IMG/VR virus record: IMGVR_UViG_3300046007_007152 | Span: 1-64,000 of that record | Length of the DNA stretch: 64,000 bases | Reading direction: 5' to 3' (one strand) | DNA from: a virus | Shown here: piece by piece, positions 56,713 to 60,932 of the stretch | Layout: the number at the start of each line of letters is the position of its first letter | How positions within the stretch are numbered: position 1 is the stretch's first letter | Notes under the pieces: model-generated | The model's input: the letters and a program-made list of their open reading frames with translations, nothing else | Database searches by the model: none | Told to the model about the DNA's origin: nothing | Translations under genes and position numbers: made by a program

Positions 56713-57524
56713 TAAATGATGTCTCCGTATCCAGCCGCGGCCCTGCTCATTATTTTTTCTGAGTTTGTGGCATCTCTATACGCTGGTTCTATTTCTAGAA
56801 ATGCTAATTGAAGATCCAATCCCATATAATAATTATTGGTTGTTAAAATAGGAGAAGATGGATCTAATCGATTAACTGTGTAATTCACCAAAAGAGATGG
56901 TTGTATTTGGTTCGACAAAACAAATGATTTATTTGGTCCAGCGCCTGGAACAATGCTTATTTTCCACATTGCTGGAGGTGTAATTTTATTAAATGTTCTG
57001 GATTCTAGTGTCGGATACATTCTGGACTGAAATCCGTTTGCAATTGCATCAATTATATCCGCATCTTTTCCGTTTTTTGCATATAAACTGAAACCAAAGG
57101 AGTGAGCACGTTTTGCCATATTTTTAAAAGACAAATCACTAAAAGAAACGTCCTGAATAGCAGAACCATTAATTCCGCCCAAAGCACCCATTACATCATT
57201 TGGGGAAAATCCCTTCAGTATTGGCAAATCCAACACTAATGTTGAAAGTTTACCAACTCCACCACCCGTAAATAAATCTCGAACTCCCTGAAGAGCCATA
57301 TCTACATTTGATGGTTCTACGTCTTGGTAATTTGCTGTGTTTGGTGAATTATATCTCTGAAGTGGTAGTATGTAAGAACCAGAATTACCTACAAGTTTTG
57401 CTTCTACTCTTTTATCAGGTCTAGTACTAAAATCTTGTGGTTGAAAACGAACCCAAGCAGCAACTCTTCTTTGATAAGTACTACTGGAGGGATATTGTTC
57501 GTTTACTGGTATTGATGTTGGCAT
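56712..57524 (-). CDS. 48: Baseplate tail-tube cap protein gp48
   Basis: Caps the hub and supports tube initiation by gp54. 270 aa (T4 364). The sequence LESRTFNKITPPAMWKISIVPG (about 183-204) and AFLEIEPAYRD near the C-terminus correspond to the tube-like domain of gp48. The N-terminus includes TYQRRVAAWVRF. It is divergent to gene 4 with only 11 bp between the two start codons, so each promoter must lie inside the other gene or be absent. Confidence 0.88.
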   Translation of the reverse strand: MPTSIPVNEQYPSSSTYQRRVAAWVRFQPQDFSTRPDKRVEAKLVGNSGSYILPLQRYNSPNTANYQDVEPSNVDMALQGVRDLFTGGGVGKLSTLVLDLPILKGFSPNDVMGALGGINGSAIQDVSFSDLSFKNMAKRAHSFGFSLYAKNGKDADIIDAIANGFQSRMYPTLESRTFNKITPPAMWKISIVPGAGPNKSFVLSNQIQPSLLVNYTVNRLDPSSPILTTNNYYMGLDLQLAFLEIEPAYRDATNSEKIMSRAAAGYGDII

Positions 57525-57535
57525 ATCTATTTCCT

Positions 57536-57979
57536 ATGGCGTATAAAAGTAAATATAAACCAAAAAATCCACAAAAATACGTTGGCAACCCAAACAACAT
57601 AATATGTAGATCCTTATGGGAAAGAACCTTCTGTAAGTATTTAGACGAAAATGCCAATATTATTCGTTGGTCTAGTGAAGAACTACAAATTCCTTATATT
57701 TCTCCAGTCGATAACCAAGTTCACATGTACTATCCTGACTTTTTATTTGAAATGAAAAAAGAAAGGGAAGTAGAAACAGTGGTTGTGGAAATAAAACCAG
57801 AAAAACAAACAAAACAACCAATTAAAGGCAAAAAAAGTAGTAAAACATTTTTAACTGAAACTATTCAATATGAGATAAATAAGTCTAAATGGCATTCTGC
57901 TAAAAATTTTTGTGATAAAAACGGATGGAAGTTTATGGTTTTGACAGAAAACAACCTTTTTAGAGGAACCACCAAATGA
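57536..57979 (+). CDS. 4: Head completion protein gp4
   Basis: Small nuclease-like head completion protein (gp4/gp50). 147 aa (T4 150). MAYKSKYKPKNPQKYVGNP aligns with T4 MAYSGKWVPKNISKYRGDP, and RSLWERTFCKYLDEN, VVEIKPEKQTKQP and SKWHSAKNFCDKNGWKFMVLTE with the T4 blocks. Catalytic-type residues of the PD-(D/E)xK kind (YPDFLFE ... VEIKP) are visible. The ATG at 57536 is chosen by this alignment over a 33-codon upstream extension. First gene of the plus-strand block. Confidence 0.94.
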   Translation: MAYKSKYKPKNPQKYVGNPNNIICRSLWERTFCKYLDENANIIRWSSEELQIPYISPVDNQVHMYYPDFLFEMKKEREVETVVVEIKPEKQTKQPIKGKKSSKTFLTETIQYEINKSKWHSAKNFCDKNGWKFMVLTENNLFRGTTK

Positions 57980-58545
57980 GTCTTTACGAACACTCAATCT
58001 CCACTCTTCAAAACTATATAAATTCTCAAGGTGGGATACAACTCCCAAACAGATATCATGTAACAATAAAGAGAAAAGATCAAGATCAACAAGGTGAATT
58101 TATCTGTAGTATGTCTCAACTACCATCAAGAAGAGTTAAAGCATATGCAGATATGTTATCTGGTGTTGCCTCACCAATTGGTATGCCTTATGGGGTTGAA
58201 TATGTAAATAATCTCATGGAATTTGTAATTGAGGAATCTTTTGCGAGCAGAAAATACTTTGAAGATTGGATTTCTTCACTTTTTACTGATGAATTTGGAC
58301 ATTCTGATTCAGATTATGTAAATAGAATAAATTTTGTTGAAAATGCAACCGGAGAGATAAAGATAGAAGCATTATCTGTTCAGAATAGAGGAAATTCACC
58401 AAAAGTAAATGCTAGATACAAATTGTATGAATGTTTTCCTTTAGAATTAATACCAACTAAATTCGATGAAACAATGATGAACTCTACAATGAAATTTACT
58501 GTTAATATGTTCTATTCACGTTACACATATGACATGCTTGCATAA
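57976..58545 (+). CDS. 54: Tail-tube-fold protein, probable tube initiator gp54
   Basis: 189 aa, gp19 family. LPNRYHVTIKRKDQ, FICSMSQLPSRRV, FEDWISSLFTDEFG and a terminal MKFTVNMFYSRYTYDM follow the tube-protein strand pattern. Position with 48, 26 and the tape measure supports the tube initiator gp54, although T4 gp54 is longer (320 aa). ATGA overlap with gene 4. The alternative is a second tube paralogue unrelated to 54. Confidence 0.68.
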   Translation: MSLYEHSISTLQNYINSQGGIQLPNRYHVTIKRKDQDQQGEFICSMSQLPSRRVKAYADMLSGVASPIGMPYGVEYVNNLMEFVIEESFASRKYFEDWISSLFTDEFGHSDSDYVNRINFVENATGEIKIEALSVQNRGNSPKVNARYKLYECFPLELIPTKFDETMMNSTMKFTVNMFYSRYTYDMLA

Positions 58546-58555: not shown

Positions 58556-58569
58556 TTATTGAGGTAATT

Positions 58570-59307
58570 ATGCTTAAAGAATTATTGATTGAAAAAACAC
58601 CAAAATATACTGAAATTTTACCAGTAACCCAAAAAAGAGTAACATTTAGACCATTTGTTGTTAGAGAAGAAAAAAATCTCATGATAGCAAAGGAAACTTC
58701 ATCATTTGATAATTTAATGACAACGGTTCAAGAAGTAATCAACTCTTGTACCACTGGCATTCCAAATGATGACTGTAAATCTCTACCATTTTGTGATTTA
58801 GAATATTTGTTTTTAAAAATAAGAGAAAAATCGCTAGGAGAAATTGTTGAATGTTATCTAACTTGCCCAGAAACACAGGAACGAGTTGTTTCTTCTATTA
58901 ATTTACAAAACGTAAAAATATCAAATAAAAAAATAAATGACAAGATAAAGTTAGATTCGAATATTACAGTTGTAATGAAACAACCAACTCTTGACACTTA
59001 TTTAAAGTTAAATAAATTCGAATTTAAAGAAGAAGAAGAGGGAGTGTTAGAATTACTAGCATTGTGTGTTTCTGAAATACATGCAAAAGAAGAAGTTTAT
59101 TACACAAAAGATGTACCTCACGAAGAAGTTCAACAGTTTATTGAGTCATTAACTGCAAAACAATTCAAAATATTAGTTTCTTTTTTGAAAGAAATACCAA
59201 CAATTGAATACACCATACCGTATAAAACAAAAGATGGGGTTGAAAGAACACTAACAATAAGAGGATTTTCTGATTTTTTAGAATTATTCTTGGTTATGCC
59301 GATTTAA
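58570..59307 (+). CDS. 26: Baseplate hub / tape-measure chaperone gp26
   Basis: 245 aa (T4 208). VTFRPFVVREEKNLMIAKE, CDLEYLFLKIREKSLGEIVE and a Cys pair CYLTCPETQE match the T4 baseplate gp26 family. The domain helps hub and tape-measure assembly. Near its 3' end the codons GAT TTT TTA form a U_UUU_UUA slippery heptamer. The -1 frame there is open for 58 more codons (see frameshift entries), so two products are likely: the short 245-aa form and a longer form. Confidence 0.88.
   Translation: MLKELLIEKTPKYTEILPVTQKRVTFRPFVVREEKNLMIAKETSSFDNLMTTVQEVINSCTTGIPNDDCKSLPFCDLEYLFLKIREKSLGEIVECYLTCPETQERVVSSINLQNVKISNKKINDKIKLDSNITVVMKQPTLDTYLKLNKFEFKEEEEGVLELLALCVSEIHAKEEVYYTKDVPHEEVQQFIESLTAKQFKILVSFLKEIPTIEYTIPYKTKDGVERTLTIRGFSDFLELFLVMPI
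59274..59280 (+). promoter_or_regulatory. Candidate -1 ribosomal frameshift site T_TTT_TTA
   Basis: The heptamer lies in the correct phase: last base of GAT (59272-59274), then TTT and TTA in the gene 26 frame. Tandem slippage lets both tRNAs re-pair one base back. The -1 frame is closed just before it (TGA 59271-59273) and open after it, so the site lies at the very beginning of the overlap, as expected of a functional site. I did not identify a firm stimulatory hairpin downstream. Confidence 0.75.
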
Positions 59308-59453
59308 TCTCTATTTTTAAAATAAATTTTCAAATATTTTTTGAACATAAAGTGCCAATAGATCAAATAGAGAGAATGCTACCGTGGGAGAGAAATTTAT
59401 TCGTGGACATGATGAGAAAACATATAGAAAATCTAAACGAAGAATTAAAATAA
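59280..59453 (+). CDS. -1 frame extension of gp26 (GT-like chaperone C-terminus)
   Basis: Fifty-seven codons plus a stop (TAA 59451-59453) in the -1 frame of 26. After RIILGYADLISIFKINF it holds IERMLPWERNLFVDMM and a Lys/Glu helix end (ENLNEELK). The LPWER(E/D) helix is typical of the T half of G-GT tape-measure chaperones and of small downstream hub-assembly proteins. There is an internal ATG at 59376, but without an SD, so translation by frameshift from gp26 is favoured (fusion of about 302 aa). The next gene is the tape measure, again as in lambda G-GT-H. Confidence 0.72.
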   Translation, partial: RIILGYADLISIFKINFQIFFEHKVPIDQIERMLPWERNLFVDMMRKHIENLNEELK

Positions 59454-59465
59454 TCATCAAAAGCC

Positions 59466-60932
59466 ATGAAGCCTACAAAAAAAGAACAAATTAAAAAAAT
59501 TATAAGAAAACAAGCGAATAAAATTAACATACCTTTCTTTAATTTTGACAACGCAAAGAAAACTGTTGATATTTCTCCATCCACTACTCTAAAAATTCTT
59601 CCAGATTTAATTGAAAAAGAAAAAAATGAGGAAACTAATGAAAAGTTTTCTCATTTTTTAATAAAACCCACTCCTGTTTTACCAAAAACAGCAAAACTAA
59701 GTTCAATTACACAACCAATTTTGTTTAATTCCGTAAAAAATGAACAAAAATTGACAGCAAACTATAATAAAAATACACTGCAACCAAAATTATTAGTTAA
59801 TAGTGCAGTTAACTCTGCAATTAAACCAAAATTATTAGTTAATAGTGGAGTTAACTCTGCAATTAAACCAAAATTAAAAGAAAATAATACTAAAAATTCA
59901 TTAATTTCATCAATATTAGTAAATAAACAGACAACTTCTCTTCCATCTATAGAGGCAAAACTAGAACCAAATGCAACGAGTGCTGGTGGGTTTGAGCAAG
60001 CAAAATTAATAACAATTAAAAAACCGAATGCCACCAAAAAAGAATTAGTTTTAGTGGGGGAACGGGGAAAAGAAACTATTAATCAAATAGACAATTCCAT
60101 AGTTCCTGTAGATTTAATAAAACACATAAAAACAAAAACTAATCTTATCACAACCACAGATACTAAACCAAAAACAGAACTAAAAAAAGAAATAAAACCA
60201 ATTCAAATAAAAGCAAAAGATGATCTTGGAACCATAACAAATGTTTTAGTAGCAAAACATGACGCCAAATCTATTCTTTCTATGGTAAAAAATCAATCAA
60301 TTGCAAACAGAATTGAACGTAAATCTGACGGTGGATTTGAACTTCAAGCATCCGCACATTTCTTAGGAATGTTATCAAAAATAGGAAAAGCAACTAGTGC
60401 AATTAGTAAATCTGGCTTAGGATCAACCGCAAAAAATATGGCAAAAAATGCTGCTGGAAATATTAAATCTGGAGCTACATCTATAGCATCTAAATCTTCT
60501 GGATTGGCTGGTGTTGGTAGCCAGCCAGGTACTTCTGCGACAGTTGCTGTCCCATCTACTGCATCTGAACCACTCCCGGTTGCGGATCAGCCTCAAGCAG
60601 AAGAAGGAGGTTCTGGTGGATCGGCCGGCGGTGGAATTGCGTCTGCTGTGGGGGGGATAATGGGTGGTGCAGGAGCAGCATTAGGTGGTATCGCTTCTGG
60701 TTTAGGTGCAGGATTAGGTGCAATGAGTGCATTGAATCCTGCTTCAATGATTGGAAAGGGAATAAAAGGATTATTAGGTGGTAGCGATGAACAAAAACCG
60801 GTTCTTCCAATTGTTCAAAGTAATTCGGCAAATCCAACAACAGTTACCACAATATTACATCAATATGATATCTACAGAAAAACAGCAGATGATTCATTTA
60901 TGCTGCCAAATTATAGAAGAGAATATGGTTAA
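59466..60932 (+). CDS. 29: Probable tape measure protein (gp29-like)
   Basis: 488 aa (T4 gp29 590). ELVLVGERGKETI (about 195-207) fits the VGE-x-G-x-E motif often found in tape measure proteins. The N-terminal 190 residues are Lys/Asn/Thr-rich and helical. Residues ~325-450 are Gly/Ala/Ser-rich and hydrophobic, as in the membrane-active part of tape measures, and the end (YDIYRKTADDSFMLPNYRREYG) is aromatic and charged. A 14-residue tandem repeat is at ~107-134. It follows the chaperone pair directly and converges on gene 32 at a shared terminator. The family call is tentative. Confidence 0.65.
   Translation: MKPTKKEQIKKIIRKQANKINIPFFNFDNAKKTVDISPSTTLKILPDLIEKEKNEETNEKFSHFLIKPTPVLPKTAKLSSITQPILFNSVKNEQKLTANYNKNTLQPKLLVNSAVNSAIKPKLLVNSGVNSAIKPKLKENNTKNSLISSILVNKQTTSLPSIEAKLEPNATSAGGFEQAKLITIKKPNATKKELVLVGERGKETINQIDNSIVPVDLIKHIKTKTNLITTTDTKPKTELKKEIKPIQIKAKDDLGTITNVLVAKHDAKSILSMVKNQSIANRIERKSDGGFELQASAHFLGMLSKIGKATSAISKSGLGSTAKNMAKNAAGNIKSGATSIASKSSGLAGVGSQPGTSATVAVPSTASEPLPVADQPQAEEGGSGGSAGGGIASAVGGIMGGAGAALGGIASGLGAGLGAMSALNPASMIGKGIKGLLGGSDEQKPVLPIVQSNSANPTTVTTILHQYDIYRKTADDSFMLPNYRREYG
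59784..59867 (+). repeat. Two 42-nt tandem repeats in the tape measure gene
   Basis: Units 59784-59825 and 59826-59867 differ by one base and encode PKLLVNSAVNSAIK and PKLLVNSGVNSAIK. A partial third copy (PKL) follows. In-frame, so copy number changes would alter tape length by 14 residues. Confidence 0.9.

Follow-up and report, generated by a model that had tools for sequence, protein, structure and literature searches.

We analyzed the gene 26 region of a 64,000-nt stretch of virus DNA (IMG/VR record IMGVR_UViG_3300046007_007152, positions 1 to 64,000, one strand), referred to here as the window. The product of the gene 26 homologue matched the Pfam family T4_baseplate (PF12322) with an E-value of 5e-50 over residues 11-237 of 245 (score 170.6, cutoff 24.5) and PHROG 150 with an E-value of 7e-51. 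On the basis of this full-length profile match we assign the product to the T4_baseplate/gp26 family. The features of the locus are as follows.

57437 to 57979, + strand: gp4-like head closure gene (PHROG 218, E 4e-53)
57976 to 58545, + strand: tail tube-like gene just upstream of gene 26 (PHROG 45, E 4e-17)
58561 to 58564, + strand: GAGG, ribosome-binding-like sequence of gene 26 (sequence inspection)
58570 to 59307, + strand: gene 26 homologue, G-type short product of 245 aa, 28.5 kDa (PF12322 and PHROG 150 matches; AlphaFold2 model)
59260 to 59265, + strand: AGAGGA, SD-like candidate stimulator of frameshifting, 8 nt before the heptamer (anti-SD pairing)
59271 to 59273, + strand: TGA shutting the -1 frame directly upstream of the slip site (-1 frame translation)
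59274 to 59280, + strand: slippery heptamer T_TTT_TTA (in phase; T_TTT_TTN invariant in relatives)
59280 to 59453, + strand: putative T-type extension in the -1 frame, 57 aa plus stop (open frame; PHROG 634; dN/dS; profile match to the T4 gp51 C-terminus)
59466 to 60932, + strand: next gene, of 488 aa, occupying the tape measure gene position (assigned by position only)

Near its end the 0-frame of gene 26 reads GAT TTT TTA, which places T_TTT_TTA in phase for tandem -1 slippage, and past the heptamer eight sense codons are followed by TAA. The -1 frame is shut by TGA just before the heptamer and can therefore be entered only between 59274 and the 0-frame stop; it then runs to a TAA at 59451-59453. 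An earlier note on this DNA had described an in-phase heptamer close to the gene 26 stop and a -1 frame closed just upstream and open to 59453, and both descriptions were accurate. The predicted fusion has 294 aa (34.5 kDa) and ends ...GFSDFLRIILGYADLISIFK...MLPWER..., with MLPWER lying in a helical segment. Its predicted junction peptide is the tryptic GFSDFLR, after which the fusion reads IILGYADLISIFK; the unshifted end reads GFSDFLELFLVMPI. We counted 13 in-phase T_TTT_TTN sites in the 21,845 ORF codons of the window, and the site at 59274 was the only one to open at least 40 codons beyond the 0-frame stop, confirming that the combination of the gene 26 heptamer and an open -1 frame is far beyond chance. 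An identical junction was present on three separate contigs (L001-L003), which makes a sequencing or assembly error very unlikely, and more divergent contigs also kept both frames.

The earlier note had proposed aligning gene 26 loci from related phages and examining the conservation of the heptamer and the -1 frame. Loci were gathered in two independent ways, via gene 26 and via the extension alone, using search patterns downstream of the heptamer. T_TTT_TTN was found exactly at the junction in 65/65 of the analyzed loci found via gene 26 and in 125/125 of those found only via the extension; with annotated isolates included, the count was 214/214 (137 after dereplication). Position Z of the heptamer among the 214 loci was C in 96, T in 70, A in 45 and G in 3, and the codon before the TTT of the heptamer ended in T in every one of them. 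Elsewhere in the genes of these loci T_TTT_TTN occurred in phase at 19 of 32,369 other codon positions. On codon usage alone, the invariance of the junction would have a probability of ~10^-55, a figure that assumes independent representatives and is overstated since they are not fully independent. The gene 26 site has the X_XXY_YYZ form of the slippery heptamers of programmed -1 frameshifting, lies in phase and is conserved in relatives. In the window's own clade, where it could be computed, the dN/dS of the extension was 0.07-0.19 in the -1 frame and at least about 0.5 in both of the others, and changes by codon position numbered 19/4/33. Judged by these substitution patterns, the -1 frame downstream of the slip site is under purifying selection at the protein level. 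Contigs L188-L232, which had been binned into bacterial and archaeal MAGs, also encode the gene 26 phage locus and are probably mis-binned phage contigs.

The extension matched PHROG 634, annotated as 'baseplate hub assembly catalyst' (gp51), with an E-value of 2.5e-6. In a profile-profile comparison with the C-termini of T4-type gp51 the E-value was 1.6e-11, with an ancestral FF junction at the fusion point. By these matches the extension is the C-terminus of gp51. In T4 itself, gp26 consists of the PF12322 G domain only and is homologous to the short form, while gp51 carries a full G domain (PF12322, E 4e-52) and the extension (PHROG 634, E 1e-23) in a single frame and is homologous to the full fusion, including a C-terminal MIPxER helix. 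The profile matches thus identify gp51 of T4 and its near kin as a complete gp26 paralogue that continues in frame into the extension. The window G form (pLDDT 90, pTM 0.84) and T4-type gp51 (pLDDT 92) were both modeled confidently by AlphaFold2, gp51 serving as a natural in-frame fusion in place of the window fusion. The predicted secondary structures of the two models were collinear, and gp51 added three C-terminal helices corresponding to the extension. A Foldseek search of both models against the PDB gave no match at E<=0.001, and sequence searches gave no homologue of solved structure. The gp51 model matched with confidence only other gp26/gp51-like viral models.

The two arrangements, two genes in T4 and one frameshifted gene here, divided the relatives cleanly. 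Among 18 complete-genome records, 11 had one PF12322 gene with the -1 arrangement and seven, of the T4 type, had two. All of the T4-type loci from viral contigs (10/10) carried both genes 26 and 51, divergently arranged; in RB43 they were in tandem. Gene 26 of the two-gene phages, T4 included, lacked T_TTT_TTN, and its -1 frame ran into gene 25 in all but RB43. In an unrooted tree with long branches (RB43), gp26 and gp51 of the T4 clade grouped together (96/93) apart from all -1 types, and the -1 types outside this group included the same-family KVP40-like and Aeromonas AS-zj phages. Among the genomes compared, T4-superfamily phages other than T4 and its near kin usually have the -1 arrangement, and phage T4 appears to make the same protein pair (G and GT) from two duplicated genes, 26 and 51. 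The proposal of the earlier note that gp26 of T4-like phages is the G counterpart of a frameshifted pair therefore applies to the -1 types and fails for T4 and its near kin, which use two genes and have lost the slip site. We infer the direction of the change, and consider it likely that duplication replaced frameshifting: an ancestral gene with the T_TTT_TTN slip site would have been duplicated in the T4 lineage, after which gene 26 lost the site and gene 51 fused G and T. A single such duplication is the simplest history, to be taken with caution since its direction is read from an unrooted tree with long branches.

Two further observations were made in these genomes. The product of T4 gene 28 (L080:10349-10882) showed weak, collinear similarity to the G domain by profile (E 0.0027, probability 11%), and T4 gp26 matched the gp28 PHROG with an E-value of 9e-4, which is only suggestive that gp28 may be a third, diverged G-domain paralogue. 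In Aeromonas phage AS-zj (L088:4200-6228), the ~2 kb that follow gene 26 carry no annotation; the -1 extension lies there, as does, probably, the tape measure gene.

Taken as a whole, we regard it as very probable that gene 26 encodes a two-form tail assembly chaperone made by -1 slippage, and that T4's kin make the pair by gene duplication. The ribosome almost certainly slips by -1 near the end of gene 26 and adds the extension to some copies of the protein, as judged from the sequence comparisons. Most ribosomes would stop at 59307 and give gp26, the 245-aa G form. We infer that in a minority, at GAT TTT TTA, two tRNAs would slip back by one base and both re-pair with UUU; the slipped ribosomes would read on to 59453 and produce the 294-aa GT fusion with its predicted three-helix C-terminal domain. 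If the pair acts as lambda G/GT does, the waiting tape measure protein would be coated by both forms, with the T domain recruiting tail tube subunits or the hub. For T4 and its near relatives, gene 26 would keep G and gene 51 would supply G fused in frame to T.

The role proposed for the pair depends in part on the neighboring genes. The earlier note had described the next gene as tape-measure-like. In the window this held by position, Pfam and PHROG profile searches giving no tape-measure family match for the 488-aa product; it held by profile for the equivalent gene in several relatives, which matched tape-measure PHROGs (L073, E 4.9e-11; L107, E 1.1e-8; L016, E 5.7e-7; phiM12, E 1.8e-5). 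A profile comparison detected no homology between the next gene and T4 gp29 (E 0.61). Inspection by eye showed a direct tandem repeat of ~42 bases (AAATTATTAGTTAATAGTG...AATTAAACC) at 59780-59875 within the 488-aa gene. These results leave some room for a different role, in which gp26 and GT are structural or catalytic factors of the baseplate hub that do not act on the tape measure, so that the frameshift is real and the likeness to G/GT mechanistic only. The historical assignment of the T4 proteins to the hub (PMC3004832), the lack of a detectable fold match to lambda-type chaperones and the nature of the window's next gene are all in keeping with such a role. Nevertheless we consider it unlikely, since in relatives the gene 26 locus precedes tape-measure-like genes and gp29, the T4 tape measure, belongs to the hub, so that a defect in a tape-measure chaperone would resemble a hub defect. 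Moreover, Leiman 2010 (PMC3004832), which gives the function of gp51 as unknown, classes gp26 and gp51 as chaperones of hub assembly and gp51 as needed for assembly yet absent from the particle; this classification fits a G/GT pair.

If the extension were instead a separate small gene (gp51), with its own start or a stop-and-restart at the gene 26 stop, the run of T bases would be incidental. Many records do annotate a separate gp51 ORF: among the isolate records, the extension was filed as a separate small gp51 gene or, in several, left unannotated, and gene 26 was joined to it in none of those examined. The extension, described in the earlier note as hidden and missed by ordinary gene callers, belongs to the known gp51 family and is often annotated as a small gene of its own. 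An ATG overlaps the gene 26 stop in EniLVp02, V09, Rhizobium I1_9 and Cygsa01, and in 23/137 representatives an ATG lies no more than 8 codons from the heptamer; in such relatives a separately started T peptide, also in addition to the fusion, is possible. However, a start-codon scan of the 137 representatives indicated that an independent start is not viable at most loci. In 84/137, including the window, no ATG, GTG or TTG occurred before residue 9 of the extension and none upstream, and the first start codon in the window's extension was at T codon 24 or later with no SD nearby. A separate gene would also leave unexplained both the invariant in-phase T_TTT_TTN and the conservation of the extension residues adjoining the heptamer, and in T4's kin this domain continues the G domain in one reading frame. 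We therefore consider a separate gene highly improbable.

The earlier note had named, as an arrangement that would count against a frameshift, related phages without the heptamer that encode LPWER in a gene of its own with its own SD. This was not found in that form among the relatives. The nearest cases were the in-frame full-length paralogue of T4's kin and the extension without a canonical heptamer in the Ackermannviridae and in Pseudomonas phage Cygsa01. In the Ackermannviridae (L086, L094, L234-L248) the -1 extension is kept with MPWH replacing PWER, and the junction reads ATT TTC ATT TAA with no X_XXY_YYZ heptamer. Cygsa01 (L091) likewise keeps the -1 extension with MPWH replacing PWER, its junction containing ACC TAA, again with no such heptamer. 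Since the extension is kept in these phages without the canonical heptamer, they must use a different recoding signal or restart.

We also analyzed the flanks of the heptamer for possible stimulators of slippage. Upstream regions of the 137 representatives paired more strongly with the anti-SD than did their synonymous codon shuffles (mean -5.76 vs -4.69 kcal/mol, Wilcoxon p 8e-7). The SD-like sequence upstream of the site is built from conserved Glu/Lys/Arg-Gly codons, and in the window the anti-SD pairing of AGAGGA was no better than that of the window's own synonymous shuffles. Just downstream of the heptamer there was an excess of RNA structure across the family, with z < -1.5 in 31% of loci vs 7-11% in most other segments scanned; about 20% was reached in one upstream segment and in the segment that follows downstream. 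A strong stem was found just downstream of the heptamer in P-SSM2 and none of note at this position in the virus DNA under study (z 0.14). Slippage of the RNA polymerase on the T-run (transcriptional -1 or +2) would yield the same fusion, and polymerases can slip on runs such as these 6-7 T. Against this route, Z is C at 96/214 loci, leaving a run of only 6 T, the site always lets two tandem codons re-pair, and an SD-like element upstream is in keeping with slippage of the ribosome; we consider polymerase slippage highly improbable. The view in the earlier note that gene 26 makes a G-type/GT-type pair by -1 frameshifting is strongly supported by comparison, through the invariant slip site, the purifying selection on the -1 frame, the lack of a usable independent start at most loci and, in relatives, the synteny with tape-measure-like genes.

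Lambda-type G/GT frameshifting is already well known. Like lambda gpG/gpGT, P2 gpE/E+E' and HK97 gp13/14, gene 26 would give a short product and a -1-frameshifted long product from one gene, and as in lambda-type systems it is placed before the tape measure gene, here in relatives. The slip site differs, being T_TTT_TTN here and G_GGA_AAG in lambda. The G domain here is ~240 aa and of predicted mixed alpha/beta structure, and it had no sequence or solved-structure match to the lambda-type chaperones. By analogy the gp26/gp51 pair would work like lambda G/GT; we do not file it as a member of the lambda gpG family and found no fold link to lambda gpG or HK97 gp13. Neither lambda gpG nor gpGT is found in the virion (PMC5009743), and the same holds for gp51 by its listing (PMC3004832). 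A two-gene form has been published for Bacillus phage 0305phi8-36, in which gp143/gp144 provide G and GT from two paralogous genes without a frameshift (Hardies 2007, PMC2147016), as we propose for T4. That phage differs in belonging to an unrelated lineage, and no frameshifting close relatives were shown there (PMC2147016). The GenBank record of Meroveus labels gp26, gp51 and gp28 as tape measure assembly chaperones. The record of Citrobacter phage Moon (L233:11607-13245) joins gp27 and gp28 into one product labeled a GT-like tape measure chaperone; our analysis points to gp26/gp51, rather than gp27/gp28, as the GT-like pair. In the openly readable literature, subscription papers aside, we found no paper that names gp26/gp51 as a frameshifted pair or explains the T4 exception by duplication.

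If this reading is correct, annotation would be corrected in cyanophage and related genomes, in which the extension is now absent or filed as a stand-alone gene, and a long-standing question would become testable with T4 amber mutants. A recoding review describes G/GT frameshifting as conserved 'except T4' (PMC5009743). Phages of the T4 superfamily would follow the frameshift rule, T4 having replaced the frameshift with two genes; its status as an exception would thereby be explained, and gp51 would gain a likely identity as the GT protein.
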